From Actinomyces denticolens (GTDB lineage: Bacteria > Actinomycetota > Actinomycetes > Actinomycetales > Actinomycetaceae), in NCBI RefSeq assembly GCF_002072185.1, contig NZ_MVIW01000007.1, positions 1-64,000 of the forward strand: a stretch of 64,000 nt of DNA, written 5' to 3'. A model generated the notes under the pieces. The model worked only from the letters and a program-made list of their open reading frames with translations. It made no database searches and was not told the origin of the DNA. Shown here in pieces: positions 39,542 through 59,130 of this stretch. The position numbers and the translations under genes were made by a program. Position 1 is the first letter of the stretch. Each line of letters opens with the position of its first letter.

Positions 39542-41422
39542 CTACTTGCCGTCCTTGCCGGTGGGATTGTCCGCGCCGAGCGCCGCGATGAAGGCCTCCT
39601 GCGGGACGTCGACGCTGCCGATCGCCTTCATCCGCTTCTTGCCCTCCTTCTGCTTCTCCAGCAGCTTGCGCTTGCGGGAGATGTCGCCCCCGTAGCACTT
39701 GGCGAGCATGTCCTTGCGCAGGGCGCGGATGGTCTCGCGGGCGATGATCCGCGAGCCGATGGCCGCCTGCACGGGCACCTCGAACTGCTGGCGCGGGATG
39801 AGCTCCTTGAGGCGCTTGGTGAGCTTGAGGCCGTAGGAGTAGGCGGCGTCCTTGTGGACGATGGCGCTGAAGGCGTCCACCTTGTCCCCATTGAGGAGGA
39901 TGTCCACCTTGACCAGGTCCGCGGACTGCTCGCCGTCCATCTCGTAGTCCAGGGAGGCGTAGCCGCGGGTCCGGGACTTCAGGGCGTCGAAGAAGTCGAA
40001 GACGATCTCCGCCAGGGGCAGCACGTAGTGCATCTCCACGCGCGTCTCGGAGAGGTAGTCCATGCCCTGCATGGTGCCGCGCCGCGACTGGCACAGCTCC
40101 ATGACGGTGCCCACGAACTCGCTGGGGGTCAGGATGGTCGCCCGGACCACCGGCTCCTGGACGTCGAGGATCTTGCCCTCGGGGTACTCCGAGGGGTTGG
40201 TGACGGTGTGGACGGCGCGGTCCTCGGTGGTGACCCGGTAGACCACGGAGGGTGCGGTGGAGATGATGTCGAGGTTGAACTCGCGCTCCAGGCGCTCCCG
40301 GATGATCTCCAAGTGCAGCAGGCCGAGGTAGCCGCAGCGGAAGCCGAAGCCGAGGGCCACCGAGGTCTCGGGCTCATAGGTGAGGGCCGCATCGTTGAGC
40401 TTGAGCTTGTCCAGGGCGTCGCGCAGCACGGGGAAGTCCGAGCCGTCCACGGGGAACAGGCCGGAGAACACCATGGGCTTGGGCTCCTGGTATCCGGCCA
40501 GCGGCTCGGCGGCCGGCGCGGCGGCGGAGGTGACGGTGTCGCCGACCTTCGACTGGCGCACGTCCTTGACCCCGGTGATGAGGTAGCCGACCTCCCCGGC
40601 GCCCAGCCCCGCCGTGGGGGCGGGCTCGGGGCTGATGACACCGATCTCGAGCAGGTCGTGGACGGCGGTGGTGGAGAGCATCTCGATGCGCTCGCGGGGC
40701 TTGAGGGCGCCGTCGACGACGCGCACGTAGGTGACGACGCCGCGGTAGGTGTCGTACACGGAGTCGAAGATCATGGCGCGCGTGGGTCCGGCGGGGTCGC
40801 CCACCGGCGCGGGGACGACCTCGACGATGCGGTCGAGCAGCTCGGGCACGCCGGCACCGGTCTTGCCGGAGACCCTCAGGATGTCTGCGGGCTCGCAGCC
40901 GATGAGCGAGGCGATCTCGTCGGCGTGGCGCTCGGGCTCGGCGGCAGGCAGGTCGATCTTGTTGAGCACGGGGATGATCGCGAGGTCGCCCTCGATGGCC
41001 ATGTAGAGGTTGGCGAGGGTCTGGGCCTGGATGCCCTGGGCGGCGTCGACGAGCAGGACGGCGCCCTCGCAGGCCGCCAGGGAGCGGTTGACCTCGTAGG
41101 AGAAGTCGACGTGCCCGGGGGTGTCGATCATGTTGAGCGCATAGGGGCGTATGGCGCCGTCGGGGCCTGGCGCGCCCCAGGGCATGCGCACGGCCTGGGA
41201 CTTGATGGTGATGCCGCGCTCGCGCTCGATGTCCATGCGGTCGAGGTACTGGGCGCGCATATCACGGGGGGCGACGACGCCGGTGGCCTGGAGCATGCGG
41301 TCGGCCAGGGTGGACTTGCCGTGGTCGATATGGGCGATGATGGAGAAGTTCCTGATCAGCGCGGGATCGGTCGCTGCCGGGGTGACGACGGCGGCCTGCT
41401 CGGGCGTGAGGATCGGTGACAC
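39542..41422 (-). CDS. lepA: Elongation factor 4 (LepA)
   Basis: LepA (626 residues) is the ribosome-bound GTPase EF4, involved in initiation or back-translocation. The G domain has [42 protein letters not shown] and NKIDLP; the C-terminal LepA-specific domain ends [24 protein letters not shown] 41422 is chosen because GGAAGG lies 7 nt upstream and the N-terminus then aligns; the frame is open ~80 codons farther but into the repeat element. Divergent from the membrane-protein gene at 41731. Confidence 0.96.
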
Positions 41423-41730
41423 GGATGCCTTCCGGACGGGCGCGGCGGGGCGCGCGGAACATACTGGGGCAGTCTCCCACGCCGCCGCCCGGGTCGGCGC
41501 GACCGAGGCCGGGTACGGGCCCGTAGCCTCAGAGATGACCGGCTGAAGTGGCGAGGTTTGAGGATCGCTCGGCCGAACCGAGGTGGTTGACCGATCAAGG
41601 ACCGCATGATCCTGCGGATCTGGCCGCTGCTGGCTGGATGCGCGGGAGAAGCAATCCTCAAACCTCGCCATTCCCGTCGGCCGCGGATGGCGCTTCGCGC
41701 GTCAGGTGAGGCTCGGCTAAGGTGCGGAGC
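41423..41730. other. lepA upstream region with element B
   Basis: This 308-bp gap holds the lepA promoter side and the 124-bp element B (41548-41671). On the plus strand a TAAGGT box (41718-41723) lies 7 nt before the next gene's GTG. No other gene is seen. Confidence 0.6.
41548..41671. repeat. 124-bp inverted-repeat element B
   Basis: Its 22-bp ends are near-perfect inverted repeats (41548-41569 with 41650-41671, two mismatches), the same sequence as in element A (34860-34983). The interiors of A and B have diverged by substitution only. It lies in the divergent lepA/membrane-protein gap and reaches within 60 bp of the latter's start. Confidence 0.85.
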
Positions 41731-42204
41731 GTGATCGAGCGGATCCACGAGCTCCACTTCGCCTGGGTGCTCCTCTTCTTCTGGTGCGGCGCCATGGCGC
41801 GCTCGAACGCCATGTACTGGACCGGGCGGTGCCTGGGCGCGGGGGCCTCGCGGAGCCGCTGGGCCCGGATCCTGCGAAGCCCGGCGTACGCGAGCGCCCA
41901 GGACTGGGCGGCGCGCTGGGGCATCTGGGCGGTCCCGCTCTCCTTCCTCACCATCGGCGCGCAGTCGCTCATTCAGGTCTCCGCCGGGGTCGCGCGCGTG
42001 CCCGTGCCGCGCTACCTGCTGGCCACGGCGATCGGCGCCCTCGCGTGGGCCGGGATCTACACGACCATCGGCATCGCGGTGCTGACCGGGTGGATGACGA
42101 GCCCCACGGGACGCTTGATGACAATCGTGGCCCTGGCGGCCGTGGCCGTCGCCATCCTGCTGCGCAGGAGGGGGCTGGGCAGGAGAGCCCCCGCATCGGA
42201 ATGA
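41731..42204 (+). CDS. Small membrane protein, possibly DedA/VTT-related
   Basis: This 157-residue protein has three or four hydrophobic segments (FAWVLLFFWCGAMARSNAMYW, WAVPLSFLTIGAQSLIQVSAG, RYLLATAIGALAWAGIYTTIGIAVL, MTIVALAAVAVAILLRRR). The central segment with RVPVPRYLLATAIGALAWAGIYTTIG recalls DedA/SNARE-associated (VTT) proteins, but the length is shorter than the family and key motifs are weak, so the function is open. GTG 41731 lies 7 nt after TAAGGT (41718-41723) and is taken as a leaderless start; GTG 41722 is in frame. Confidence 0.65.
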   Translation: MIERIHELHFAWVLLFFWCGAMARSNAMYWTGRCLGAGASRSRWARILRSPAYASAQDWAARWGIWAVPLSFLTIGAQSLIQVSAGVARVPVPRYLLATAIGALAWAGIYTTIGIAVLTGWMTSPTGRLMTIVALAAVAVAILLRRRGLGRRAPASE

Positions 42205-42329
42205 GCCCGGGCCCATGGCTCGGGGAGGCGCGGCCGCCTCGGCGCGTCGGGGACGCCGAGGGGAGCTCGGCGCCTGCGCTCGCCGGCCCCTCACCCCCAT
42301 CCCACGATATGAGCGCCGCCACGTCGGAT

Positions 42330-42359
42330 TTGCCGCCCGCTTCCCGGCTCCCCTACCGT
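42330..42359 (+). promoter_or_regulatory. trp operon promoter
   Basis: TTGCCG (42330-42335) and TACCGT (42354-42359) are 18 bp apart. The trpL ATG follows the -10 box by 7 nt, placing the transcript start at or next to the start codon. Confidence 0.75.
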
Positions 42360-42366
42360 TCCTCCC

Positions 42367-42408
42367 ATGACGACGACGCGCACCCGCTGCTGGTGGTGGC
42401 TCCCCTGA
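42367..42408 (+). CDS. trpL: trp leader peptide (three consecutive Trp codons)
   Basis: This 13-residue peptide, [13 protein letters not shown], has Trp at 9-11 (TGG x3 at 42391-42399) and a TGA at 42406-42408. It has no ribosome site and lies 7 nt after the -10 box, so it should be translated from a leaderless mRNA. Two downstream stems follow (42410-42416/42443-42449 and 42453-42461/42485-42493). This is the geometry of ribosome-mediated attenuation: stalling at Trp codons changes which stem forms. Known for trp operons of enterics and corynebacteria; assigned here from sequence pattern. Confidence 0.88.
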
Positions 42409-42452
42409 GGGCGAGCCACTGATACGTCGTACCCGACGCCCCGCTCGCCACG

Positions 42453-42493
42453 AAGGCGGGCGCGAGAGCGCGAGGAGTCCCCGGGCCCGCCTT
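42453..42493 (+). promoter_or_regulatory. trp attenuator hairpin
   Basis: The arms AAGGCGGGC (42453-42461) and GCCCGCCTT (42485-42493) are perfect 9-bp complements 36 bp before trpB. An earlier 7-bp stem (GGCGAGC 42410-42416 with GCTCGCC 42443-42449) ends 3 bp before it and starts right after the trpL stop. There is no U-run, so the hairpin may stop transcription inefficiently or act otherwise. Confidence 0.68.
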
Positions 42494-42529
42494 GAGAGCA
42501 TAACCACCCCTCCAAGGAAAGAGCCCCGC

Positions 42530-43867
42530 ATGAGCACCGCAGACGCCGCCCAGTCGGCCCCCACCGCCCACGACGCCGCGCCCCTTCCCGGCGCCGCCCC
42601 CACCGCCGGCCGCGTCCCGACCGGCCCGCTCGGCCCCGACGCCCCGGGATACACCGCCCCGGCCCCCGGCACGGACGTCCCCCGCCGCACGCTGCTGCCG
42701 GCCTTCTTCGGGCGCTTCGGCGGCCAGGAGGTCCCCGATTTCCTCCTACCCGCGCTCGACGAGCTCGAAGCCGCCTACACCGAGGCCGTCGACGATCCCG
42801 GCTTCCTCACCGAGCTCGAGGACCTGCGCGAGGGATACCTCGGCCGCCCCACGCCCCTGTACGAGTGCCGCGGCCTCTCGCGCCCCGGGACCCGCATCAT
42901 CCTCAAGCGCGAGGACCTCGTCCACGGCGGTGCCCACAAGGGCAACAACGCCCTCGGGCAGGCCCTCCTGGCCAAGCGCATGGGCAAGACCCGCCTCATC
43001 GCGGAGACCGGTGCGGGCCAGCACGGCACCGCCACCGCGATGGTCGCCGCCCTGCTGGGCATGGAGTGCACCATCTACATGGGCGCGCACGACGTCGAGC
43101 GCCAGCGCCCCAATGTGGAGCGCATGGAGCTCATGGGGGCCAGGGTCGTCCCCGTGACCACCGGCTCGCAGGGTCTCAAGGACGCCGTCGACACCGCCCT
43201 GACGCAATGGTGCGAGCGCCTGGAGTCCACCGCCTACGTCCTGGGCTCGGCCACCGGCCCCCACCCCTTCCCCACGATCGTCCGCTACTTCCAGTCGGTG
43301 ATCTCCATCGAGTCCCGCGCCCAGATGCTCGCCCGCTACGGGCGCCTGCCGGACGCCGTCATCGCCTGCGTGGGCGGGGGCTCCAACGCCATCGGCGCCT
43401 TCAGCGAGTACCTGGACGACGACGTCGAGCTCATCGGCGTGGAGCCCGCGGGCAAGGGCCTGAGCACCGGCCTCCATGGCGCCCCCATCTGCGCCGGCCG
43501 CACCGGCGTGCTCCACGGCACCCGCTCCTACGTCATGCTCGACGACGACGGCGCCGTCCTGCCCTCCCATTCCATCTCCGCCGGCCTCGACTACCCCTCC
43601 GTGGGGCCCGAGCACGCTTATCTGGCGGACACCGGGCGGGCCGAGTACGTCGGCATCACCGACGACGACGCCCTGGCCGCCTTCCGGGAGCTCTCCCGCT
43701 CCGAGGGGATCATCCCCGCCATGGAGTCCTCCCACGCCATCGCCGAGGCGCTGCGGATCGCCCGCGAGCGCGAGGCCGGTGGTCGGACCGGGGAGATGCT
43801 GCTCCTGGTCAACCTGTCCGGGCGCGGGGACAAGGACATGCACGAGGTCCGCGAGCACCTGTCCTGA
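42530..43867 (+). CDS. trpB: Tryptophan synthase beta chain, stand-alone copy at operon head
   Basis: This 445-residue PLP enzyme condenses indole with serine. The Lys that binds PLP is Lys137 in [19 protein letters not shown]; the catalytic Glu lies in [15 protein letters not shown] and the phosphate loop is [12 protein letters not shown]. It resembles enterobacterial TrpB1 rather than the TrpB2 class. The first 50 residues are a Pro/Ala-rich extension. AAGGAAAG precedes ATG 42530. The operon encodes a second TrpB fused to TrpC; this copy has diverged from it (for example [17 protein letters not shown] where the fused copy has [17 protein letters not shown]). Which copy pairs with TrpA is unknown. 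Confidence 0.93.
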
Positions 43868-43926
43868 CCCGCCCCGGGGATGATCGGAGACGATGAGGAG
43901 CGATAAGACGCGATGAGGAGCGCAGC

Positions 43927-45633
43927 ATGACTGTCACAGGCACTGCGGGATCGGCGGAGTCCGCGGATCCGATCCGGCCCGCCGAGCCCACGGTTCTGAC
44001 CCGAAAGGTCCACTGCCCCGACGATTCCGGGGCGCTCATGAGGCGCCTGGTTGAGGCCGGCGCGATCGCCACCACCGCGGACGGCGCGGACGGTGCCCGC
44101 AGGCCGGTGGACGTCGTCCTGCTGGAGAGCGCGGACATCACCACGGGGTCCTCGCGCACGACGGTCCTCATGCTCGAGGCGAGCGCGCGACTGACCTGCG
44201 AGGGGGACCAGGTGGTCATCGAGGCCCTGGACCGGGCCCGGCCCGACGGGGAGGCCGCCGTGGCGCGCGTGCGCGCATCCCTGGCGGATCGCGTCGTCGA
44301 GGAGGGGCCCGGCCGTCTGGCGGTGCGGATCCCCTCACCGGCCGACGACGCCGGGATGGAGGAGCGGGAGCGGCTGACGGCCCCCTCGACCCTGGATCCG
44401 CTGCGCGTGCTCGCCTCCCAGGAGGTCGACCACCCGCACCTGCCGCTCGTGGCGGGAGTATTCGCCTTCGATTACCTGGCGGGCTTCGAGCAACTGCCGC
44501 AGGTGGCCGCAGGACCGAACACCTGCCCGGACTACCTGTTCCACGCCGCGCGCATCCTCCTGGTCATCGATCACCCCACCGGTGAGGCGGCACTGGTGGG
44601 GGCGAGTGCGGATGCCGATGATCTCGCGCGCAGGATCGACGAGCTGGCCACCGTCATCGACGCCGCGGGGCCCGCGCCGGTCCCGGATGCGGGCGGGCCC
44701 GCGTCGCCGGCGGGAGGCGCCGGCCCAGTGGCCGGCCCAGCCGCCCGCCCGGTGGCCCGCGCCGTGCCCAGCATCTCGGACAGCGATTTCGCGGGGCTCG
44801 TGGCCGGGCTCCAGGAGTCGATCGCAGCCGGGGACGTCTACCAGGTGGTTCCGTCGCGGGCGTTCACGATCGACTGCCCGGATGCGCTGGAGGCCTACCA
44901 CGCGCTGCGCGAGTCGAATCCGAGTCCCTACATGTTCTACGTGGCGACTCCCGGCTTCGAGCTCCTGGGCGCCTCCCCCGAGTCCGCCCTGCTGCACAGC
45001 GCGGCCACGGGCGAGGTGGCCATCCGGCCCATCGCCGGCACTCGCCCGCGCGGGCTGGCCCCGGACGGCTCCGTGGACCATGAGCGGGACACCCGCCTGG
45101 AGTTGGAGCTGCGCACGGACGCCAAGGAGATCGCCGAGCACGTCATGCTCGTGGACCTGGCGCGCAACGACGTCGCCCGAGTCAGCGCGCCGGGCACCCG
45201 GCGAGTGCGCGAACTGCTGCGCGTGGACCGCTACAGCCGCGTCATGCACCTGGTCTCGGAGGTGTCCGGGCAGCTGGACCCGGGCCTGGACGCCCTGGAC
45301 GCCTTCCGCGCCTCGATGACCATGGGCACGCTCACCGGTGCTCCGAAGCTGCGGGCCGCCGAGCTCATCCGCGCCACCGAGGGCGTGCGGCGCGGCTCCT
45401 ACGGGGGCGCGGTGGGCTATCTGCGCGGCGACGGCGAGCTCGACACCTGCATCGTCATCCGCTCGGCCTTCGTGGCGGGCGGACGGGCCCTGGTGCAGGC
45501 CGGCGCGGGCGTCGTCGGCGCCTCCGATCCGGCCGCCGAGGCGGCCGAGACCGTCCACAAGGCCGGCGCGGTGCTGGCTGCCGTGGCGGCCGCCCGGGGC
45601 GCTGAGCTCGTCATCGAGACCGGGGAGGCCTGA
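43927..45633 (+). CDS. trpE: Anthranilate synthase component I
   Basis: TrpE (568 residues) makes anthranilate from chorismate with ammonia supplied by TrpG. The tryptophan feedback motif LLES is at 65-68, and the chorismate domain has QVVPSRAFTIDCPDALEAYHALRESNPSPYMFY, PIAGTRPRG, VDLARNDVARV, VMHLVSEVSGQL, MTMGTLTGAPKLRAAELI and RRGSYGGAVGYL. Its detailed order (FDYLAGFEQLPQV, CPDYLFHAARILLVIDH) follows enterobacterial TrpE much more than the usual actinobacterial one. GAGGAG precedes ATG 43927. TrpG starts 2 bp after the stop. Feedback inhibition by Trp is expected. Confidence 0.96.
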   Translation: MTVTGTAGSAESADPIRPAEPTVLTRKVHCPDDSGALMRRLVEAGAIATTADGADGARRPVDVVLLESADITTGSSRTTVLMLEASARLTCEGDQVVIEALDRARPDGEAAVARVRASLADRVVEEGPGRLAVRIPSPADDAGMEERERLTAPSTLDPLRVLASQEVDHPHLPLVAGVFAFDYLAGFEQLPQVAAGPNTCPDYLFHAARILLVIDHPTGEAALVGASADADDLARRIDELATVIDAAGPAPVPDAGGPASPAGGAGPVAGPAARPVARAVPSISDSDFAGLVAGLQESIAAGDVYQVVPSRAFTIDCPDALEAYHALRESNPSPYMFYVATPGFELLGASPESALLHSAATGEVAIRPIAGTRPRGLAPDGSVDHERDTRLELELRTDAKEIAEHVMLVDLARNDVARVSAPGTRRVRELLRVDRYSRVMHLVSEVSGQLDPGLDALDAFRASMTMGTLTGAPKLRAAELIRATEGVRRGSYGGAVGYLRGDGELDTCIVIRSAFVAGGRALVQAGAGVVGASDPAAEAAETVHKAGAVLAAVAAARGAELVIETGEA

Positions 45634-45634
45634 G

Positions 45635-46276
45635 ATGCGCGTCATCCTGCTGGACAACCGCGATTCCTTCGTCTACAACCTCGTCGACCAGCTCGCCGTA
45701 CTGGGCGTGGGCACCGAGGTCTATCGCAACACGGTGCCGGCTTCCGCGGTCCTGGCCGCGTTGGAGCCGACGGCGCGGGAGACGGCCGCGGGCCAGCGCC
45801 CCGCCCTGGTCCTCTCCCCCGGCCCCGGGCACCCCCGCCAGGCGGGTTGCATGATGGGGGTCCTGGGCGCCGCCCTGGAGCGCGGCCTGCCGACGCTGGG
45901 CATCTGCCTGGGCTTCCAGGCCATCGTCGAGGCCTGCGGTGGGAGCGTGGGGAGGGTCGAGCCGGTCCACGGCCGATGCACCCGCGCGGAGGTCACGTCC
46001 GCCGGGCGCGCCGATGCCGCCTTCGCCGTGCTCGACGGCGGGCCCCTGGATGTCGCCCGCTACCACTCGCTCGGCACGCGCGAACTGCCCGCCGACCTGG
46101 AGTGCCTGGCCCGCACCAGCGACGGGATCGTCATGGCCGCGCGCCACCGACGACGCCCCGCCGTCGGCCTCCAGTTCCACCCCGAGTCCATCCTCACCCC
46201 GGCCGGCCCCGCGATCCTGCGGGCCCTCATCGCCGGATTGACCACCACGACCGCAAGCGCAGGAGAGAACCGATGA
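45635..46276 (+). CDS. trpG: Anthranilate synthase component II (glutamine amidotransferase)
   Basis: TrpG (213 residues) supplies ammonia to TrpE. The nucleophile is Cys91 in LGICLGFQAIVEACGG and the catalytic His/Glu are in FHPESILT. DNRDSFVYNLVDQL, LSPGPGHPRQAGCM and DVARYHSLGTREL are conserved and resemble the TrpG domain of enteric TrpGD. It is a separate protein here, unlike the enteric TrpG-TrpD fusion. Its stop overlaps the trpD start by four bases (ATGA). Confidence 0.95.
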   Translation: MRVILLDNRDSFVYNLVDQLAVLGVGTEVYRNTVPASAVLAALEPTARETAAGQRPALVLSPGPGHPRQAGCMMGVLGAALERGLPTLGICLGFQAIVEACGGSVGRVEPVHGRCTRAEVTSAGRADAAFAVLDGGPLDVARYHSLGTRELPADLECLARTSDGIVMAARHRRRPAVGLQFHPESILTPAGPAILRALIAGLTTTTASAGENR

Positions 46277-47427
46277 CAGAGCCGACAACCGCGCCAGAGC
46301 CCACCACTGCCCCGGCCCCCTCGGCACCGGCCGTCGCCGGGGCCGAGGACGCCCACCGACTCCTGCGCGAGGTCATCCAGGGCCGCCGGCTCAGCCGGGA
46401 GGAGACCGGCATCGTCTTCGCCGCGCTCGGCGCCGGGGACCTCTCCGAGGCCGAGACCGCCGCCCTGCTCGCCGCCCTGCACTCCCGGGGCGAGACCGCC
46501 GACGAGGTCGCGGGAGCCGCGAGCGCCTTCCGCCGGGCCGCGCGCCCCTTCCCCGCCGTCGCCTTCCCGCTCGTGGACGTCGTGGGCACGGGGGGCGACG
46601 GCGTCGGCACGATCAACATCTCCACCGCGGCCGGGCTCGTCGCCGCGTCGATGGGCATCTCGGTGGCCAAGCACGGCAACCGGGCGGTGTCCTCCAGGAC
46701 GGGGGCGGCCGACGTCGTCGCGGCCCTGGGCCTGCCCCTGGACGTCACGGCCGAGCAGGCCGTCGAGCTGCTGGCGCGCGACCACTTCACGTTCCTGTTC
46801 GCCCAGGCCTATCACCCGGCGATGAGGCACGTGGCACCGATCCGCAGGGCCCTGGCCACGCCCACGATCTTCAACGTGCTCGGCCCCCTGCTCAATCCCG
46901 CGCACCTGACCTACCAGCTCATGGGCGTGTGGGATCCCTCCATGCTCGACATGATCGCCGAATCCATGGTCAAGCTGGGCCGCAAGCGCGCCCTCATCGT
47001 GCACGGGGCGGGCACCGATGAGATCGCCGTCCACGGCGCCACGCAGGTGCGGGAGGCCACCCCCCGCGGGGTCAAGGCCTACGAGGTCACCCCGGAGCAA
47101 CTCGGCGTGGCCCGCTGGGAGTTGAAGGACGTCCTGGGCGGTGAGGCCGCCGAGAACGCCGCCGCCCTGCGCGAGGCGCTCGCGGGCCGGGGAGAGCCGG
47201 CCCACCGCGATGCCATCGCCGTCAACGCCGGCGCCCTGCTCTACCTCGCGGGGCCCGCGGACAACCTGGCCGATGGCACCCGCATGGCCCTGGAGCAGAT
47301 CGCCTCAGGGGCGGCCGGCGGGCACCTGGACTCCATGACCACCGCGGCGCAGCTGGCGGCCCGCTCCGGACGGGCCGGCGGGGCGAGCGGCGAGGGCGCT
47401 GAGATCGCTGAGGAGGAGCGGGCATGA
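46273..47427 (+). CDS. trpD: Anthranilate phosphoribosyltransferase
   Basis: TrpD (384 residues) transfers phosphoribose from PRPP to anthranilate. The PRPP loop GTGGDG is at 105-110, followed by [34 protein letters not shown] and [37 protein letters not shown]. The first 25 residues are Pro/Thr-rich. Both ends overlap neighbours by four bases (ATGA), giving tight translational coupling from trpG through to the TrpC-TrpB fusion. Length is slightly above the usual 335-350. Confidence 0.96.
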
Positions 47428-49751
47428 GCGCCGGAGCGACCACGCGCAGCGCGCCGGCGCGCCCCGAGCGCGCGCCGATCGAGGAGCGCCTCATGGCCAC
47501 CGGCACGGTGCTGGACGCGATCGTGGCCGGGAGGCGCCGGCGCCTGCCCGAGCTGCGCGAGCGCTTCGGCCACCTGGAGGCCTCGGCCCTGCCCCGTTCC
47601 GGGCGCTCCTTCGAGGAGGCCCTGCGGCGCCGCACGGGCCCCTCCGCCGGCCCGCGCCCGGCGATCATCATGGAGTGCAAGGCGGCCTCGCCGTCGCTCG
47701 GCTCGATCCGGGCGGACTACGACCCCGCCGCGCTGGCCTCCTCCTACGCCCCCTACGCGGCGGCGATCTCCGTGCTCACCGAGCCTGACCGCTTCAACGG
47801 CGAGTACGAGGACCTGGCCCGGGTGCGCGCAGCGGTGGACCTGCCGGTCCTGTGCAAGGACTTCATCGTCGACCCCGTGCAGGTGCTCGCGGCCCGTCAC
47901 CTGGGGGCGGACGCGATCCTCCTCATGCTCTCCGTGGTGCCCGACGACGTCCACCGGGAGCTGGCGGGGCTGGCAGCCTCCCTGGGCATGGGCGTGCTCA
48001 CGGAGGTCTCCACCCCCGGCGAGATGAGCCGGGCGGCCGCCCTGGGCGCGCGGGTCATCGGCATCAACAACCGGGATCTGCGCACGCTGGACACGGACCT
48101 GTCGCGCACCGAGGAGTTGGCGCCCCTGGCGCCGGCCGGGGCGGTCCTCGTGGGCGAGTCCGGGGTCCATGGGCCGGGGGACGTGCGGCGCCTGGCCGGG
48201 ATCGTGGACGCCCTGCTGGTGGGCTCGAGCCTGTCGGGCTCGGCGGATGCCGGGGCCGCGGCCCGGGCGCTGGTGGAGGCCGTGCCGCTGCCGGGCGGGC
48301 CCTCCGGGGCGCGGGTCGGCGCCGACTCCCCGGCAGCCGAGGAGTCCCCGGTCTCCCCCGCGCTCAGGCGCGCGCGCCTGGCCGAGGCCGCTGCGGCGCC
48401 ACCGGGCCCGGACGGCCGCTGGGAGCACCCGCGCCTCGACCCCTACTTCGGGGGGTACGGGGGCCAGTTCGTGCCCGAGCTGCTCATCCCCGCCCTGGAT
48501 CAGTTGGAGGACGCCTTCATCGCCGCGAGCGCGGACCCCGCCTTCACCGCGGAACTCGATGAGCTCCTGCGCCGCTACCTGGGGCGCCCCACGCCGGTGA
48601 CCGAGCTGCGCAACCTGCCGCTTCAGGGCAATGCGAGGATCCTGCTCAAGCGCGAGGACCTCGTTCACGGCGGGGCGCACAAGGGCAACCAGGTGCTCGG
48701 CCAGGCGCTCCTGGCCAAGCGGATGGGCAAGCGGCGCATCATCGCCGAGACCGGTGCGGGCCAGCACGGCACCGCCACCGCGATGGTCTGCTCGCTGCTG
48801 GGCCTGGAGTGCACGATCTACATGGGCGCCACCGACGTCGTGCGGCAGGCCGCCAATGTGGAGCGCATGGAGCTCATGGGCGCGCGGGTGGTGCCCGTGG
48901 CCAGTGGCGCGGGCACCCTCAAGGACGCCGTCAATGAGGCGTTGAGGGATTGGACGGCCTCGTTCAAGGACACCCATTACCTGCTGGGCACCGCCGCCGG
49001 CCCGCATCCCTTCCCCACGATCGTCCACGCCTTCCACCGGGTCATCTCCACCGAGGCCCGCGCCCAGGTGCTCGCGCTCACGGGGCGCCTGCCCGATGAG
49101 GTGATCGCCTGCGTGGGCGGGGGGTCGAACGCCATCGGCATGTTCTCCGACTTCATCGACGACGCCTCCGTGGGGCTCATCGGCGTCGAGCCCGCGGGCG
49201 AGGGCCTGGACCGCCGCCACGGGGCGCCGATCAACGCCGGCGCCATAGGGATCCTCCACGGCGCCCGCTCCTACCTCATGCGCGACGACGACGGCCAGGT
49301 CGAGGAGTCCTTCTCCGTGTCCGCCGGCCTGGACTACCCCGGGGTCGGCCCTGAGCACGCGCGCCTGTCCGATACGGGACGGGCCCGGTACGTCGGCATT
49401 ACGGATGAGGAGGCGCTGGAGGCCTTCCGGCTGCTCAGCCGCCATGAGGGGATCATCCCGGCCCTGGAGTCCTCCCACGCCCTCGCCCAGGCCCTCAAGA
49501 TCGCCGAGGCGGTCCCCGATGGCGCCGAGCCGCCCATCCTGCTCGTGTGCCTGTCCGGGCGCGGGGACAAGGACCTCGACCAGGTGCGGGCGCGCATGGG
49601 CGGTTCGTTCAGCGACGACGGCGCGGTGGCCCGGGCGGCCGGGATGCTGCGACGGATGGGCAAGCGCGGTGAGTACGAGGCCATGGCCACCCGGGCCGGG
49701 GCCGCGCCGGCGGCGCCCGGAGTGGGCTCGAGTGATGAGGAGGAGCGCTGA
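47424..49751 (+). CDS. Fused indole-3-glycerol-phosphate synthase and tryptophan synthase beta (TrpC-TrpB)
   Basis: This 775-residue fusion joins two Trp enzymes. Residues ~20-285 are Trp[17 protein letters not shown] (catalytic Lys86), [50 protein letters not shown] and VGESGV. A ~50-residue Ala/Pro linker (about 286-335) follows. Residues ~336-730 are Trp[19 protein letters not shown] Lys420 in [39 protein letters not shown]. All expected catalytic residues are present in both halves and the frame is continuous, so it should make one polypeptide. It is coupled to trpD (ATGA) and trpA (TGATG). In enteric bacteria TrpC is fused to TrpF, absent here. Channelling of indole glycerol phosphate is conceivable but unproven. 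Confidence 0.93.
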
Positions 49752-50605
49752 TGGATCGCTACGAGTCGATGTTCACCGCCCTGCGCGAACGGGGCGAGGG
49801 GGCCTTCGTCCCCTTCGTCATGGTGGGCGACCCCAGCGCGGAGCTGTCCGAGGAGGTCATCGAGGCGCTCATCGCCGGGGGCGCGGACGCCCTGGAGCTC
49901 GGGGTGCCGTTCAGCGACCCCGTCGCCGACGGGCCCACGATCCAGCGCGCGCATATCCGCGCCCAGGAGGCCGGGGCCGCCCTGGCCGACTGCCTGGGGG
50001 TGGTGGCGCGCGTGCGCCGGCGCCACCCGGAAATGCCCATCGGCATGCTCATCTACGGAAACGTTCCCTTCGCCGTCGGCCTGGAGGCCTTCTACACCAG
50101 GTGCACCGAGGCGGGGATCGACTCGGTCCTGCTGCCCGATGTCCCCGTGCGCGAGTCGCCCGCCTTCTCCGCCGCCGCGGTGCGGGCGGGGATCGCCCCG
50201 GTGTACATCGCCCCGCCGTCGGCCGCGCCCCACACGCTCGACGCCGTGGCGGGCGCTTCGCGGGGCTACGTGTACGCGGTCTCGCGCGTGGGGGTCACCG
50301 GCGCCGAGCAGGCCGCCTCGACCGTGGGGCTGGCCGAGTCGGTGGCCAGGCTGCGGGCCGGTGCCGCGGCGCCGGTCATGCTCGGTTTCGGCATCTCCCG
50401 CCCCGAGCAGGTCGCCGAGGCGATCGCCGCGGGGGCCGATGGGGCGATCTCCGGGTCGGCGACGGTCCGGATCGTGGAGTCCCACGCCCCGGCCATCGCT
50501 GCGGCGCGGCCGGGCAGCCGCGCGAGGGAGGAGGCCGTCGAGGCGATGCGCGCGGAACTGCGCGGCTTCGTCGCCGCGATGAAGGCGGCCGCGCGGCCAC
50601 GGTGA
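49751..50605 (+). CDS. trpA: Tryptophan synthase alpha chain
   Basis: TrpA (284 residues) cleaves indole-3-glycerol phosphate to indole, passed to TrpB. The barrel signatures are FVPFVMVGDPSAELSEEVIEALIAGGADALELGVPFSDPVADGPTIQRA, containing the catalytic Glu and Asp, and DSVLLPDVPVRES, YVYAVSRVGVTG and GFGISRPEQV. Its ATG overlaps the fusion-gene stop by one base (TGATG). It closes the trp operon; no strong hairpin is seen right after it. It could pair with either of the two TrpB copies. Confidence 0.96.
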   Translation: MDRYESMFTALRERGEGAFVPFVMVGDPSAELSEEVIEALIAGGADALELGVPFSDPVADGPTIQRAHIRAQEAGAALADCLGVVARVRRRHPEMPIGMLIYGNVPFAVGLEAFYTRCTEAGIDSVLLPDVPVRESPAFSAAAVRAGIAPVYIAPPSAAPHTLDAVAGASRGYVYAVSRVGVTGAEQAASTVGLAESVARLRAGAAAPVMLGFGISRPEQVAEAIAAGADGAISGSATVRIVESHAPAIAAARPGSRAREEAVEAMRAELRGFVAAMKAAARPR

Positions 50606-50694
50606 GTCGGCACGGGACGGGGATCGGGGCGGCCAAGGCCTCGTGACGAGGAAGGATGGGGAGAACGACCTGCCAATTGGCGAGCATGAACCTC

Positions 50695-50723
50695 TTCACA
50701 AGTGATGCCCGCCACGTTAGATT
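50695..50723 (+). promoter_or_regulatory. Promoter of the exported-protein gene
   Basis: TTCACA (50695-50700) and TAGATT (50718-50723) are 17 bp apart, about 50 bp before the next gene. This supports an independent transcript after trpA. Confidence 0.6.
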
Positions 50724-50771
50724 GATGGGGTGTCCTTAATCGTTTCGAGACATTGTGAGAGAAGGCCTGCC

Positions 50772-52316
50772 ATGCGCCGAACACGTTCCATACCATCGTC
50801 CCCACTGCGCCGGATCCTCGGCCCCGTCCTGGCCCTGCCCATGGCGCTCGCCGCCCTGATCGCCGTCCCCGCCTCCGCGGCAACGACCGCTCCCAGCGGC
50901 GGCAATGACGACATCAGCGTCACCGGCTTCTACTCCCCCGGGGGCACCGGCTGCCAGGGCGCCGGCGATGCCGCCCACTGCCTCTTCTGGGGCGTGCGCA
51001 TCCCTGACACCGTGGCACCGGGCAGGGAGATGACCCTGACCCTCGAGGCCGACTCCCAGCCGGGCCAGTGGACCTGGAACTGCCCCTCGGAGCTGGGGGT
51101 CGCCGGTGCGGCCGCCCTCTACACCAGCGACAACCCGGACGGGCCGATCCGCCGGTACGGGTCATCGGGACTCGGACTGCTCTCCCGCATCTACGACCCG
51201 TACTCCAAGCACGGCGACTACTCCGCCTCCGCCGACAGCGTCTCCTGCTCCCCCGGGCATCTGAGCCTGACCTACACGGTCGACTTCTCGGGGCGCCCCT
51301 CCGGCTCCTACCTCGACCTGAGCATCGGGACGCTGGTCAACGCCCCGGGGGACCAGGCGCGCGACTACACGCTCAAGCCGACCCTGACGACCACCGAGGA
51401 CGCCACCCCTCACAGCCCCACGGCCACAGCGGTCAAGGAGCCGGCGAGCGCCACCCACGCCACAGTGACCACGAGCAAGCAGGACCTGCCCGCGGATGCG
51501 GCCAAGGACGCCGGCCGCTACACGGCCACCATCCACAACGACTCCACCACCGCCCTGTCGGGCTTCACGATCGCGGCCGCGAGCACGGAGGGCCCGGCCA
51601 CGATCACGAGGCTGAGCTGTGATCTGACCGCCTTCGGGGGCAGCGTCGTCACCGCGGAGGGCTCGGCCACGAGCCAGGAGGTCTCGGGGGGCGGGGCCGC
51701 CATCCCAGCGGGCCAGGAGGCCACCTGCCAGGTGGACCTGAGCGGCGTCGTCGGGCACAACACCATCTCCACCTCCGTCACCGCCCAGGACGGCAAGATC
51801 TTCTCCTCCCTCTACGAGGATGAGCGCGCCCGCGGCGACGCCTCGGCGACGGTCGCCCAGAGCGGCGTCACCGTGCAGGGCCCGGACGCCACGCACTCGA
51901 CGCCCCACGTCGTCGTCGACTACACCGTGACCCTCTCCAACACCACTGACGTGGTGGGCTGGACGCCGAATTTCACCCTGACCTCGAAGCCGCCGACAGG
52001 GATGAAGCTCGAGTACGCCGACCCCAGCGGCACCGCCTGGTGGCTGCACGACACCCTGTGGCCCGACGCCAATGGCACTATCCCCGTGGGCATGTCGAGC
52101 CCGCTGTACGGCAACTCCGACTACACGGTGACGCTGTCCGCCGTCTACTCGGTGGACAGCGCCGCGATCACCCCGGATGGCTGGAAGGCCCTGGGGACCT
52201 GCGACCCGAATGACCCGTCGAAGGGCCTGAGCGCCACGATCGACGTCAAGGGCAACGACACGATCGACACGGCCTCCTTCCCCCTGTGCACCACCGTGGC
52301 CCAGGCGAAGAAGTAG
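50772..52316 (+). CDS. Exported protein of unknown function, probably Ig-like folds
   Basis: This 514-residue protein has a clear signal peptide: basic RRTRSIPSSPLRR, a hydrophobic core with LALPMALAALIAVPASA, and likely cleavage after ASA near residue 37. The mature part is beta-rich, Ser/Thr/Gly-rich, with WTWNCPSELG and several Cys, and repeated patterns such as YTATIHNDSTTALSGF and YTVTLSNTTDVVGWTPNF that resemble Ig-like adhesin domains. There is no LPXTG sorting signal or C-terminal anchor, so it is probably released or loosely attached. GAGAAGG precedes ATG 50772. I do not recognise the family. Confidence 0.72.
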   Translation: MRRTRSIPSSPLRRILGPVLALPMALAALIAVPASAATTAPSGGNDDISVTGFYSPGGTGCQGAGDAAHCLFWGVRIPDTVAPGREMTLTLEADSQPGQWTWNCPSELGVAGAAALYTSDNPDGPIRRYGSSGLGLLSRIYDPYSKHGDYSASADSVSCSPGHLSLTYTVDFSGRPSGSYLDLSIGTLVNAPGDQARDYTLKPTLTTTEDATPHSPTATAVKEPASATHATVTTSKQDLPADAAKDAGRYTATIHNDSTTALSGFTIAAASTEGPATITRLSCDLTAFGGSVVTAEGSATSQEVSGGGAAIPAGQEATCQVDLSGVVGHNTISTSVTAQDGKIFSSLYEDERARGDASATVAQSGVTVQGPDATHSTPHVVVDYTVTLSNTTDVVGWTPNFTLTSKPPTGMKLEYADPSGTAWWLHDTLWPDANGTIPVGMSSPLYGNSDYTVTLSAVYSVDSAAITPDGWKALGTCDPNDPSKGLSATIDVKGNDTIDTASFPLCTTVAQAKK

Positions 52317-52354
52317 GAGCGGCGGACCGACCAGCGCCGTCGGCGCGCTCCACC

Positions 52355-52389
52355 GGGGGCGTCCCCAGCCCGCAGCTGGGGACGCCCCC
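52355..52389. terminator. 15-bp perfect terminator hairpin after the exported protein
   Basis: The arms 52355-52369 and 52375-52389 pair over 15 bp with a 5-nt loop. It lies 39 bp after the stop codon. No T-run. Confidence 0.8.
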
Positions 52390-52430
52390 TCGCCCCCTCT
52401 CGCCCGGCAGCGGACTGTAGGGTGGCGCCC

Positions 52431-53063
52431 ATGGCCAGCCTTCTCGACGGGATCCTGCGCGCGGTCGGCCGCGCCGCCACCGACGCCCTCGCCTCCACCC
52501 TGAAGCAGCGCGCGCGCCGCGCCGGCGGCGCCACTCGCCCCGGCCGCGGGGGCTCCGCTCATTCCCCGACCCCCACCGCCTCCCCCGCGCCCCGCCGCCG
52601 GAGAGGCGCGGCCCCCCGGACCACGCAGGCCCCCACCGGCGGGAGCGCCGGCATCCGGCCCTACGACGTGGCCTCCGCCGGGCTCCCCTCCTTCGACTAC
52701 GCCCCCGCCCCCGACGGCGACGCCGACCCCGGCGAGGTCGTGTGGACCTGGGTCCCCTATGAGGAGGACGCCTCCCAGGGCAAGGACCGCCCCGTCCTGG
52801 TCCTGGCCCGCAGCGGGGATCGCCTCATCGTCGCTCAGATGACATCGAAGGACCATGACCGCGACGCCGCCCAGGAGGCGAGTCACGGCCGCTACTGGTT
52901 CGACGTCGGCCCGGGGGCCTGGGACCCGAGGGGCCGCCCGAGCGAGGTCCGGCTCGACCGCCTCCTCGCCGTCGAGCCCTCCGCCATCCGCCGCGAGGGG
53001 GCCACGATGGGGCGGGGGACCTTCGACGCCGTCGTCGCCGCGCTGCGCGAGCACTGGGGCTGA
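52431..53063 (+). CDS. PemK/MazF-like protein, orphan
   Basis: This 210-residue protein has a C-terminal PemK/MazF-like barrel from about residue 100: GEVVWTWVPYEEDASQGKDRPVLVLARSGDRLIVAQMTSKDHDRDA and DRLLAVEPSAIRREGATM. MazF relatives are mRNA endoribonucleases, but this clade may have other roles, and the first ~90 residues (Arg/Ala-rich, basic) are unlike classical toxins. No small antitoxin gene is adjacent on either side. ATG 52431 is 7 nt after TAGGGT (52418-52423), consistent with a leaderless mRNA; GTG 52422 is an alternative. Confidence 0.75.
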   Translation: MASLLDGILRAVGRAATDALASTLKQRARRAGGATRPGRGGSAHSPTPTASPAPRRRRGAAPRTTQAPTGGSAGIRPYDVASAGLPSFDYAPAPDGDADPGEVVWTWVPYEEDASQGKDRPVLVLARSGDRLIVAQMTSKDHDRDAAQEASHGRYWFDVGPGAWDPRGRPSEVRLDRLLAVEPSAIRREGATMGRGTFDAVVAALREHWG

Positions 53064-53298
53064 CGAACGCGGGGAGGCCCGCAGGAGGAGCGCGACGCAC
53101 CTCACGCCGCCCGCCCACCCGCGGCGGGCGCCGGAGTGCGCCGTTTTGCTAGAGTGCGTTCCTGGACCTCTGGCCTGGCCGGCTTCGGGGTCCGGCGACC
53201 GGGCATCGCCAGGTGCTTCCACCACCTTCTCACGCCCGTGGCGCGAACCCTCTTTCCGGCCAATGACCATCTGACGATCGAGAAAGCAGCACTGAGCA

Positions 53299-53559
53299 GT
53301 GGCGAACATCAAGTCCCAGATCAAGCGCATCAAGACCAACGAGAAGGCCCGGCTGCGCAACCAGTCCGTCAAGTCCGAGCTCAAGACCTACGTGCGCCGC
53401 GTGCGCCAGGCCGTTGAGGCCGGGGACAAGGCCGCCGCCGAGGAGGGCCTCAAGAAGGCCTGCCGCAAGCTGGACAAGGCCGTCTCCAAGGGCGTCATCC
53501 ACAAGAACCAGGCCGCGAATCGCAAGTCGAAGCTGGCCAAGCGCGTCGCCTCCCTCTGA
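53299..53559 (+). CDS. rpsT: 30S ribosomal protein S20
   Basis: S20 (86 residues) binds 16S rRNA in the 30S body. The sequence begins [22 protein letters not shown] and has the basic helical pattern with [22 protein letters not shown] at the end. The start codon is GTG 53299. A TAGAGT box (53150-53155) would give a 5' leader of roughly 140 nt, which may carry autoregulation as in other rpsT genes. A strong hairpin follows. Confidence 0.97.
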
Positions 53560-53582
53560 GGCCACCGCCTCCGGCGATCAGT

Positions 53583-53621
53583 GGCCCGGTGGGCCTCCCT
53601 CGTGGGGAGGCCCACCGGGCC
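53583..53621 (+). terminator. 17-bp perfect terminator hairpin after rpsT
   Basis: The arms 53583-53599 and 53605-53621 pair perfectly over 17 bp with a 5-nt loop, 23 bp after the stop. A short GTTCC follows. Confidence 0.85.
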
Positions 53622-53787
53622 GTTCCGCATCCGCCCACCGCTCCGCGCCCATTAGTGGCTGCGTCACACGATGGCACCAACGGCGCCGCGTCACGCCGTC
53701 GTCATACTCGCGGGGGTTACGATGGCGCGCGGCCTGCGGCCGAATCGGCCGGCAGGCGGTTCGACCACTGCGACCCCAGGAGCCCAT

Positions 53788-55281
53788 ATGCCCATGCGAA
53801 TCGGATTCGACCGGGACAAGTACCTCAGGATGCAGTCCGAGCACATCGCGGAGCGGCGCAGGCAGTTCGGGGGCAAGCTCTACCTGGAGTTCGGGGGCAA
53901 GCTCGTCGACGACATGCACGCCTCCCGCGTGCTGCCCGGCTTCACCCCGGACAACAAGATCGTCATGCTGGCCGAGCTCATCGACGAGGTGGAGATCATC
54001 GTGGCCGTCAACGCCCGCGATTTCCAGCGCCGCAAGGTCCGCGCCGACCTGGGCATCGGCTACGAGGACGAAGTGCTGCGCCACATCGACGCCTTCCGCG
54101 ACTACGGGCTGTACGTGGGCAGCGTCGTCGTCACCCAGTGGACCGATGACAACCACGAGGCGCAGGCCTTCAAGACCAAGCTCGAGCGGCTCGGCATCAC
54201 GGTCTACCGGCACTTCCCCATCCCCGGCTACCCCGGTGACGTCGCCCGGATCATCTCGGCCCAGGGCTACGGGAGCAACGAGTACATCGAGACCGAGCGG
54301 GATCTCGTCGTCGTCACCGCGCCGGGGCCGGGCAGCGGCAAGATGGCGACCTGCCTGTCCCAGGTCTACCAGGACCACCAGAGGGGCCTGTCCTCCGGCT
54401 ACGCGAAGTTCGAGACCTTCCCCATCTGGAACCTGCCGCTGGACCACCCGGTGAACATCGCCTACGAGGCCGCCACCGCCGACCTCGACGACGTCAACAT
54501 GATCGACCCCTTCCACCTGGCCGCGCACGGGGTCCAGACCGTCAACTACAACCGCGACGTCGAGATCTTCCCCGTGCTCGTGCGCCTCTTCGAGCAGATG
54601 CTCGGGACGTGCCCCTACGCCTCCCCCACGGATATGGGCGTCAACATGGCCGGCCACTGCATCAGCGACGACGAGGCCTGCCGTGAGGCCTCCAAGCAGG
54701 AGATCATCCGCCGTTACTTCAAGGCCCTGGTCACGGAGAAGCAGGACGCGATCGACCCCGTCCAGTCCGAGCGGATCGCCCTGTCCATGGCGAAGGTCGG
54801 GGTGACGGTGGAGGACCGACCGGTGGTGCCGCCCACGCGAGAGCTGGCCGCCGCCACGGGCGCACCCGCCGCCGCGATCGAGCTGCCGGACGGTCGCATC
54901 ATCACCGGCAAGACCAGTGCCCTGCTGGGCTGCTCCTCGGCGATGGTGCTCAACGCCCTCAAGGCCCTGGCGGGGATCGACGAGGAGGTGCTGCTGCTCT
55001 CGCCCGAGTCGATCGAGCCCATCCAGACGCTCAAGACGACCCACCTGGGCTCGCGCAACCCGCGCCTGCACACCGATGAGGTGCTCATCGCCCTGGCCGT
55101 GTCCGCCTCCACGGACCCGAACGCCGCGCGGGCCATGGAGCAGATCGCCACGCTGCGGGGCTGCGATGTGCACACCTCGACGATCCTGGGCAGTGTGGAC
55201 GAGGGGATCTTCCGCTCCCTGGGCGTGCAGGTGACCAATGAGCCCGTCTACGCCACGAAGTCGCTGTACCGCAAGCGCTGA
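53788..55281 (+). CDS. DUF1846 domain-containing protein
   Basis: This 497-residue cytoplasmic protein is a full-length DUF1846 member: [51 protein letters not shown] at the start, [19 protein letters not shown] (a P-loop-like Gly-rich segment) in the middle, and [15 protein letters not shown] and [17 protein letters not shown] later. Function is not established; the family is found in many anaerobes and actinobacteria. ATG 53788 has AGGAG (53778-53782) 5 nt upstream; ATG 53794 is an alternative. It is convergent with holA. Confidence 0.92.
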
Positions 55282-55310
55282 GGCCGCCGGGCGGGGGCAG
55301 TGGCCCGGGG

Positions 55311-56342
55311 TCAGTGACGAGTGGCCAGGCGCCCCCGGCGGGCGGAGCAGATCGCCAGGACGGCGCGCTCGACGGCGTGCTCGGGGTCGCGACTGGCGCC
55401 CTTGGTCTCGGCGTCGGCGCGGGCGACGGCGATGATCGCCGCGGCGAGAGCGTCGTCGGACCAGCCGGAGAGCTCCGCGCGGGCGCGCTTGGCCTGCCAA
55501 GGGGACATGCCGAGCTCCTTGGGCCCCATGCCGGGACGGCCGCCCGCGGCGGCGACCCGGGCGAGCTGGCGCAGCTTGACGGCCAGGGCGGACACGATGA
55601 GCACGGGCGCGACGCCGGTGGCCAGGGCGTGGCGCAGGAGGGTGACGGCCCTGGCGACGTTGCCGGAGATGGCGGCGTCGGCGACGCTGAAGCCGGTGGC
55701 CTCGATGCGGCCGGCGTAGTAGGTGTTGACGTGGGCGACGGTGATGGTGCCCTCTGTGTCGGCCATGAGCTGGGCGACGGCGCTGGTGAGTTCGCGCAGG
55801 TCGGAGCCCAGGGCGTCGACGAGCGCCCCGATGGCCTCGGGCTCGATGCGGCGGCCGGCACGGCGCGCGTCGGCGTTGACGAGGGCCGCCTTGTCCCCGT
55901 CCTTCTTGATCGGCTCGCAGGTCACGACGGGGTATGGGGAGGCGCCGAGGGCGTCGAGGAGCTTCTTGCCGCGCTGGCCGGAGTTGTGACGCAGGATCAC
56001 GACGACGTCGGGGTCGGGGGCGGCGACGTAGGCGAGCAGGTCGGCCAGGAGCGCATCCGTCATCTGCTCGAGATTGGGCACGTGGACGAGCCTGGGCTCG
56101 CCGAAGAGCGAGGGCGAGACGAGGGTGTCGAGCATGTGGGGCTCGTAGGTGGCAGCGTCGAGGCGGACGACCTCCGTGGTGGGGTCCTTGGCCCGGGCCT
56201 GGGCGAGGAGCCGGTCGACGGCGCGCTCGCCGAGGAGCTCCTCCCCGCCGCGCACGAGGACGACGGGGGCGAGCTCCACCTGGTCCCACGACGGCCCCGC
56301 GGGACGGGGGCGCTTCGAGGCGGCGGGTCGTGCGGGCGGCAT
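55311..56342 (-). CDS. holA: DNA polymerase III subunit delta
   Basis: HolA (343 residues) is the clamp-loader delta subunit that opens the beta clamp. It shows the actinobacterial pattern VELAPVVLVRGGEELLGERAVDRLLAQA, LDTLVSPSLFGEPRLVHVPNLEQ, AYVAAPDPDVVVILRHNSGQRGKKLLDAL and the C-terminal ARVAAAGGRPGMGPKELGMSPWQAKRARAELSGW. ATG 56342 is chosen because the family N-terminus begins there. Its usual partner comEC is not adjacent, but rpsT lies nearby as in many genomes. Confidence 0.93.
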   Translation of the reverse strand: MPPARPAASKRPRPAGPSWDQVELAPVVLVRGGEELLGERAVDRLLAQARAKDPTTEVVRLDAATYEPHMLDTLVSPSLFGEPRLVHVPNLEQMTDALLADLLAYVAAPDPDVVVILRHNSGQRGKKLLDALGASPYPVVTCEPIKKDGDKAALVNADARRAGRRIEPEAIGALVDALGSDLRELTSAVAQLMADTEGTITVAHVNTYYAGRIEATGFSVADAAISGNVARAVTLLRHALATGVAPVLIVSALAVKLRQLARVAAAGGRPGMGPKELGMSPWQAKRARAELSGWSDDALAAAIIAVARADAETKGASRDPEHAVERAVLAICSARRGRLATRH

Positions 56343-56400
56343 GCCCCAAGCCTGCCACAGCCCCCGTCTCCTCCCCCGCGCTTCCCCTCCCCTCTCTCGC

Positions 56401-56454
56401 CGAGACCGGTTGTTGTTGTCATCGAGACCGGTTGAAGTGGTGGTCGAGACCGGT
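56401..56454. repeat. 22-bp repeat array, three cores (site 2)
   Basis: Three identical cores CGAGACCGGT begin at 56401, 56423 and 56445, exactly 22 bp apart, with 12-nt spacers TGTTGTTGTCAT and TGAAGTGGTGGT. A complementary array lies at 58301-58376, so the two arrays form an inverted pair around the two genes between them. Confidence 0.92.
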
Positions 56455-56457
56455 TCC

Positions 56458-58290: not shown

Positions 58291-58300
58291 CCCACCACCA

Positions 58301-58407: not shown

Positions 58408-59130
58408 TCAGGCTGCGCGCGTGACCTCCAGGGCCTCCTCAAGGGTGAAATTGCCGTTGTAGAGGGCCTTGCCGACGATCGCGGAGTCCACCCCGATCCC
58501 CACCAGTCCGGTCAATGCGCGAATATCATCCAGTGAGGAGATCCCCCCGGAGGCCACCACGGGCGCGCTGGTGCGCTCGCACACCTGGCGCAGCAGTTCC
58601 GTGTTCGGCCCGGTGAGAGTCCCGTCGCGGGTGACGTCAGTGACCACGTAGCGCGAGCATCCCGCCGCGTTCAGGCGCTCCAGGGCCTCCCAGAGGTCGC
58701 CGCCCTCCTCCGTCCAGCCGCGCGCCGCCAGCGTCGTCCCTCGCACATCGAGACCCACGGCGATGGCCTCCCCGTGCTCGGCGATGGCCCGCGCCGTCCA
58801 GTCCGGGTCCTTCAGCGCGGCAGTGCCCAGGTTGACCCGTGCGGCGCCGGCGGCGAGCGCGCGCTCCAGGGAGGCGTCGTCGCGGATCCCGCCGGAGAGC
58901 TCCACCTTCACCCCGACCTCGCCGACGATGCGCGCCAGCAGCTCGGCGTTGGAACCCCGCTCGAAGGCGGCATCGAGATCCACCAGGTGGATCCACTCCG
59001 CCCCGGCGCGGGCCCAGTCGAGGGCGGCGTCGACGGGACTGCCGTAATCGGTCTCCGATCCGGCCTCGCCCTGGAGCAGGCGGACGGCCTTACCGTGGGC
59101 GACGTCGACGGCGGGAAGGAGCGTGAGCAT
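58408..59130 (-). CDS. priA: PriA-type ProFAR isomerase (HisA, probable dual HisA/TrpF)
   Basis: This 240-residue TIM barrel is a PriA-clade enzyme: [34 protein letters not shown] with the catalytic first Asp, [23 protein letters not shown], and the second catalytic Asp in [16 protein letters not shown], then [12 protein letters not shown]. It isomerises ProFAR in histidine synthesis; actinobacterial PriA often also isomerises phosphoribosylanthranilate for tryptophan. No trpF gene or domain exists in the trp operon of this window, which supports the dual role, not proven. AGGAGG lies 6 nt before ATG 59130. It follows hisH with an 86-bp gap. Confidence 0.9.

Follow-up and report, generated by a model that had tools for sequence, protein, structure and literature searches.

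A TrpC–TrpB fusion of Actinomyces that probably arose by loss of TrpF from an acquired tryptophan operon

Proteins in which TrpC is followed by TrpB on one polypeptide, with no TrpF domain between them, already form a named NCBI family (NF010375, PRK13802). TrpC is also known joined to TrpF (NF006945, PRK09427), and TrpF joined to TrpB (NF010376, PRK13803). According to the accessible text of PMC5404923, PriA became SubHisA in certain species of Corynebacterium, and deletion of priA in Actinomyces oris MG-1 yields a tryptophan auxotroph that is nevertheless a histidine prototroph, which is left unexplained. Attenuators of trp operons are published for Corynebacterium and Streptomyces (accessible text of PMC1262725). 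Here we analyze a window of 64,000 nucleotides of Actinomyces denticolens (positions 1 to 64,000 of contig NZ_MVIW01000007.1, assembly GCF_002072185.1), in which an earlier note had described, from the letters alone, a TrpC–TrpB fusion in a trp operon that has no trpF.

The fusion gene and its operon

The fusion gene of the window is a single intact frame from ATG to stop (Table 1). As the earlier note had claimed, this one frame holds a complete TrpC with Lys86 and a complete TrpB with Lys420, the architecture of NF010375: the frame is free of stops, Pfam places IGPS at residues 30–283 (262.9 bits) and PALP at residues 386–700 (138.2 bits), the protein scores 577.7 bits against the TrpB model TIGR00263 (cut-off 392.45), and Lys86 and Lys420, the PLP lysine, sit in the motifs MECK and AHKGN, respectively. 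The TrpC half keeps all six IGPS residues (E, K, K, E, N, and S), and E84, K86, K145, E194, N215, and S246 of IGPS together with K420, E442, and S711 of TrpB, which we take to be the catalytic positions, do not vary among 14 aligned fusions. The product would be a bifunctional indole-3-glycerol-phosphate synthase/tryptophan synthase beta subunit in which both halves are predicted to be active. An AlphaFold2 model built from the 14-row alignment has a confident TrpC barrel, a pLDDT below 50 over residues 290–357, a poor TrpB half, and a pTM of 0.45 that does not settle how the domains pack.

Table 1 Features of the trp operon and of priA in the window.
Feature	Position	Strand	Remarks
Leader peptide	42367..42408	+	13 aa, three tandem Trp codons (WWW); 163 bases 5' of solo trpB
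Stand-alone (solo) trpB	42530..43867	+	445 aa, first operon gene here; TIGR00263 561.4 bits, cut-off 392.45; own TrpB subfamily (tree)
trpE	43927..45633	+	Proteobacterial type; above cut-offs of NF010079 and TIGR00565 (trpE_proteo)
trpG	45629..46276	+	TIGR00566 124.2 bits, cut-off 121.05
trpD	46273..47427	+	TIGR01245 372.3 bits, cut-off 199.05
trpCB fusion gene	47424..49751	+	775 aa; start overlaps trpD stop, stop overlaps trpA start
TrpC (IGPS) domain	47511..48272	+	Residues 30-283; E84, K86, K145, E194, N215, S246 kept
Linker	48273..48437	+	Residues 284-338; hypervariable, predicted disordered
TrpB domain	48438..49589	+	Residues 339-722; PLP Lys420
trpA	49751..50605	+	TIGR00262 285.4 bits, cut-off 102.35; start overlaps fusion stop codon
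priA (HisA/TrpF dual isomerase)	58408..59130	-	TIGR01919 385.4 bits, cut-off 306.45

The linker, which had been described as Ala/Pro, is indeed rich in Ala, Gly, Ser, and Pro (22.5%, 14.6%, 10.5%, and 9.4%, respectively, in the middle part of 41 distinct linkers). Approximate dN/dS values from four sequences were 0.32–0.93 for the linker, 0.15–0.39 for TrpC, and 0.07–0.15 for TrpB; these ranges touch, and the linker appears to tend toward faster evolution than both domains. The fusion of A. timonensis (L008/L135) is a mosaic, with a TrpC that is 92% like that of the window and a TrpB that is 98% like that of A. oris L141; the TrpC halves of A. timonensis and L141 are only 77% alike, and recombination near the linker is the likely cause.

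The same architecture occurs as a single frame, read from the DNA in each case, in 52 of 213 genomes of the family, namely 45 of the 49 of the genus (a count that includes the window's own genome) and 7 of the 164 elsewhere (G080, G083, G090, G151, G157, G160, and G163, picked among the matches listed in family scans). Two strains of A. oris other than MG-1 (L136 and L141) carry it. As 45 of the 49 genus genomes encode TrpC and TrpB in one stop-free frame, chance or a sequencing artefact can be ruled out. The frame of the window likewise shows no stop or frameshift. The remaining four genus genomes comprise two in which the TrpC and TrpB halves lie in different frames (G016 and G030, the latter being locus L092) and two (G004 and G049) in which no fusion-type TrpC was found. 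G016 (L091) is a single-contig genome, and its frame difference may reflect a genuine split or an error in the sequence.

The operon runs leader, solo trpB, trpE, trpG, trpD, trpCB, trpA; its first two elements, the leader and solo trpB, had escaped the earlier note. The overlaps between stops and starts at the trpD/trpCB and trpCB/trpA junctions suggest translational coupling. The leader with its three tandem Trp codons is a probable attenuator. Folding of the leader region gave a z of -2.3, no terminator-like site was found on the plus strand at the leader, a promoter and terminator scan of 42150–51000 returned nothing useful, and Rfam had no match over 41000–60000. Of 34 fusion-type operon loci (a set that includes the two frame-split genomes and several second records of one genome), 33 have a WWW peptide upstream, the exception, L085, having only WW. 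The leader precedes solo trpB in the window and likewise at locus L135 of A. timonensis and loci L200 and L205 of Corynebacterium; it lies between solo trpB and trpE in the Actinomyces loci L092, L097, L138, L143, L144, and L172. Thus, among the Actinomyces loci read, solo trpB stands behind the leader only in the window's lineage. Solo TrpB forms a separate subfamily (support 99) that includes the upstream TrpB of two Corynebacterium loci as well as orphan TrpBs of relatives, for which the 12–13 kb fetched contain none of the other trp genes searched for; it may be an indole-salvage enzyme.

TrpF, PriA, and the native his-trp site

No trpF (PF00697) was found in the window's genome, which is 99.9% complete, in a search in which all 14 control genomes were positive, or in any of the 52 fusion genomes. 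TrpF does occur in 11 of the 213 family genomes, none of them a fusion carrier. The absence of trpF from the operon, as noted earlier, therefore extends to the rest of the genome, and the fusion is not confined to genomes that retain trpF. A PriA-family protein is present in 52 of the 52 fusion genomes, in 45 of them above the curated cut-off; the other seven (G048, G080, G083, G151, G157, G160, and G163) have a divergent copy only. In all eight operons mapped outside the form typical of the genus, from these seven genomes and G090 (L083–L090), a priA homologue 39–48% identical to that of the window is the next of the searched genes after trpA, and this divergent homologue is probably the SubTrpF type of PMC5404923, for which it is a candidate.

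Five family genomes (G081, G082, G116, G119, and G171) encode TrpCF, and four Actinomycetaceae (G082, G116, G119, and G171) keep it with a separate trpB. There was no HisA/PriA match in G081 and G082, and TrpCF occurs together with a PriA above the cut-off in G116, G119, and G171, which indicates that PriA allows TrpF to be lost without making its loss inevitable. The earlier note had also assigned the isomerase step to PriA, and this is supported by the occurrence of the PriA family in every fusion genome and by the A. oris deletion mutant, which establishes that PriA is needed for tryptophan synthesis in that species (accessible text of PMC5404923). The earlier note had proposed testing priA loss for tryptophan and histidine auxotrophy; the published A. 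oris mutant already provides part of that test, and shows the first but not the second.

A second TrpC homologue, which we call pseudo-IGPS (L098:6252-7076, minus strand; G000:C1:111254-112075 in the window's own genome), has homologues in all 49 genus genomes. Its counterparts of K145 (N in 47, H in 2) and N215 (D in 47, S in 2) are lost in 49/49, S246 is replaced by G in 49/49, and E194 is changed in 12/49. The protein has 74 invariant columns, with dN/dS values of 0.10–0.42 where computable among eight copies, and persists in G004 and G049, which are without a fusion-type TrpC; the second TrpC copies read outside the genus keep all six residues. Pseudo-IGPS is thus a conserved protein with a putative new function. 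It adjoins lgt-pyk in 8 of the 8 genus loci examined, with hisI beside it in seven and hisF in six, and gene content marks hisF-hisI-..-lgt-pyk as the native his-trp site, where the genus loci examined have only this degenerate TrpC. We considered the idea that pseudo-IGPS beside hisI accounts for the histidine prototrophy of the A. oris priA mutant. In addition to the adjacency of hisI in those seven loci, A. oris CCUG 34288 (G021, L141) has pseudo-IGPS; against the idea, G048 keeps pseudo-IGPS and neither hisF nor hisI was found within the surrounding 13 kb.

Origin of the fusion

A scan of named genomes with a TrpC alignment gave, as its best 80 loci, 65 TrpC–TrpF loci and 15 loci of the present fusion. 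Among the matches listed, all 15 fusion loci belong to Actinomycetaceae (Actinomyces and Boudabousia liubingyangii), and all 65 non-fusion loci encode TrpC–TrpF in a single frame with trpB behind it; most of these come from Corynebacterium and gammaproteobacteria, with others from Canibacter, a Mycobacteriaceae MAG, and an Actinomycetaceae isolate. In a TrpC tree of 82 rows, 23 fusions form one group (support 100) that is sister to the TrpCF proteins of Corynebacterium and Actinomycetaceae (support 82), with the gammaproteobacterial TrpCF next, and with native actinobacterial TrpC and the fusions of another family of the order (f3) placed elsewhere. A TrpB tree of 95 rows agrees in outline: the fusion group has a support of 92, and its sister is the solo trpB subfamily. 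These are quick trees that come with long-branch warnings, the TrpC tree included. NF006945 is the best of the models whose best stretch covers the TrpC part, with 297.7 bits (below the cut-off of 380), and on this score and the TrpC tree we assign the TrpC half to the TrpC–TrpF lineage.

We consider it highly probable that a horizontally acquired trp operon, WWW leader included, lost its TrpF domain, that TrpC was joined to TrpB, and that PriA is the isomerase. The intact fused frame, the kept catalytic residues, the failure to find trpF, the presence of PriA, and the phylogeny are the observations that carry this explanation; the order of TrpF loss and of joining we infer, as we do any benefit of proximity. 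An ancestor within Actinomycetaceae would have acquired a whole operon of the enteric or corynebacterial type (WWW leader, trpE-G-D-CF-B-A), whose TrpF the resident PriA would have made redundant; the TrpF domain would then have been lost, and a flexible linker would have come to connect TrpC with the product of the neighboring trpB. In the present-day pathway TrpC would make indole glycerol phosphate (IGP), TrpA would cleave it, TrpB on the chain of TrpC would make tryptophan, and PriA would perform the isomerization. Loss of TrpF from a trpCF-trpB array of the corynebacterial or enteric type had been proposed in the earlier note, and the relatives, both trees, and the count of 0/52 for trpF speak in its favor. 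Some observations sit less easily with the explanation. TrpF is retained beside PriA in G116, G119, and G171, three of the family's five TrpCF genomes; the fusion group is a sister of the TrpCF proteins from Corynebacterium and Actinomycetaceae rather than nested among them, and the support of that join is only 82; and, given the patchy distribution of the operon in the family, exchange among genera may have obscured how events followed one another. Moreover, the 53 loci yield 41 distinct linkers, and in none of these did an HMM built from 68 TrpCF proteins detect a remnant of TrpF (best E 2.4); the case for TrpF loss consequently rests on phylogeny.

A linker free of TrpF remnants would also fit a two-step course, in which deletion of TrpF put trpC and trpB side by side as separate genes and the two were fused later; we regard this course as possible though not favored. 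PriA would make the unfused stage viable, and G113 has a trpB-trpA pair of the TrpCF type in a genome where TrpF and a TrpCF-type TrpC were not found; it is no clear intermediate, because trpB lies right at the start of its contig and the completeness of the genome is 91%. Against this course, no trpF-less operon of the TrpCF type with separate trpC and trpB was seen other than the frame splits G016 and G030, which belong to the fusion-bearing genus. We think it very improbable that the fusion stems from a native actinobacterial trpC-trpB pair by stop loss, or from one event shared with the NF010375 fusions, even though many genomes have native trpC next to trpB and the fused version spans both domains in all 17 f3 genomes tested. 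Both halves group with the TrpCF-type set and not with the native set; a single origin of all TrpC–TrpB fusions is rejected by AU tests in which they were constrained to one clade (p 8.4e-9 for TrpC and 3.9e-5 for TrpB, quick trees); and the distance from the TrpC motif to the TrpB motif is 41–110 residues (59 loci, repeats of one genome counted) as against about 35, measured likewise, in L118, which is among the four f3 proteins listed. By these tests the TrpC–TrpB fusion appears to have arisen at least twice in one bacterial order, with the f3 fusions separate from that of Actinomyces.

Role of the joining and comparison with known fusions

IGP, the product of TrpC, is the substrate of TrpA and not of TrpB. 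The remark in the earlier note that the fusion could pass IGP or indole locally therefore needs correction, and a gain from proximity is possible only if TrpA docks on the TrpB half. The fusion most likely works as two independent active sites on one chain. That it is a neutral by-product of deletion, leaving two independent enzymes linked, seems to us somewhat the better bet and is compatible with either origin: the linker is hypervariable and predicted to be disordered, the single-contig genome G016 has the two parts in different frames, and it is TrpA that consumes the product of TrpC. Neutrality explains less readily that 45 of the 49 genus genomes still have the single frame and that a TrpC–TrpB fusion became fixed at least twice. 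A more speculative reading, which we hold to be rather unlikely, is that TrpC, TrpB, and TrpA form an assembly in which TrpA docks on the TrpB half and the tethered TrpC feeds IGP to it locally, a solution that would have evolved twice in one order, here after PriA had freed TrpC from TrpF; Corynebacterium would then be the reverse case, having retained the acquired TrpF while its PriA turned into SubHisA. The occurrence of at least two fusion events allows a fair test of a kinetic benefit against a by-product of deletion, and with TrpCF relatives surviving in the same family, the notion that gene loss drives domain fusion is directly testable.

The closest described architecture is that of NF010375 (PRK13802), which the fusion of the window shares, but the window fusion scores 601 bits against a cut-off of 1386, and the f3 members, whose domains are of the native actinobacterial kind, have a shorter linker and arose separately. 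Within f3, presumably Bifidobacteriaceae, 17 of 23 genomes matched the window fusion protein and six gave no match; all 17 have a stop-free frame over both domains of NF010375 and nine are above its cut-off. NF010375 was also run over 396 genomes of the phylum at E 1e-150, a threshold that the window fusion itself misses, which makes the scan blind to its type, and the 12 matches that reach both domains all have an internal stop. Similarly, in a scan of 297 genomes of the order, which showed no f3 fusion as a spanning match and can miss divergent fusions, all 19 spanning matches listed outside the family have at least one internal stop. Judged by domain content and by the AU tests on quick trees, the window fusion is a member of an already named architecture that has a different parent and an independent origin, and does not share common descent with the NF010375 fusions. 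Among the matches listed in the open-access literature, including the accessible texts of PMC2395257 and PMC1854888, there was no description of a TrpC–TrpB fusion; most subscription papers lie outside that scope. The TrpF–TrpB fusions (NF010376, PRK13803) likewise have TrpB with an N-terminal barrel of the trp pathway, but their barrel is TrpF whereas that of the window is TrpC, and the window protein scores 584.6 against 819.

TrpC–TrpF (NF006945, PRK09427), of which we take the structure 7etx to be the C. glutamicum protein, includes the closest kin of the TrpC half among the matches listed, shares the operon order, and has the WWW leader upstream in 48 of the 65 named TrpCF loci (the non-fusion loci among the best 80 relatives listed; a few possibly by chance); the window fusion differs from it in having no TrpF domain and in having TrpB attached instead. 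The PriA, SubTrpF, and SubHisA2 enzymes of Actinomycetaceae (PMC5404923) account for the missing TrpF step, although the words trpC, trpB, and fusion have no occurrence in a word search of the main text of that paper. Taken together, these comparisons suggest that the same kind of operon transfer led to a redundancy of TrpF and PriA that was resolved in opposite ways, Corynebacterium having kept TrpF, and Actinomyces having kept PriA, without TrpF and with TrpC joined to TrpB.
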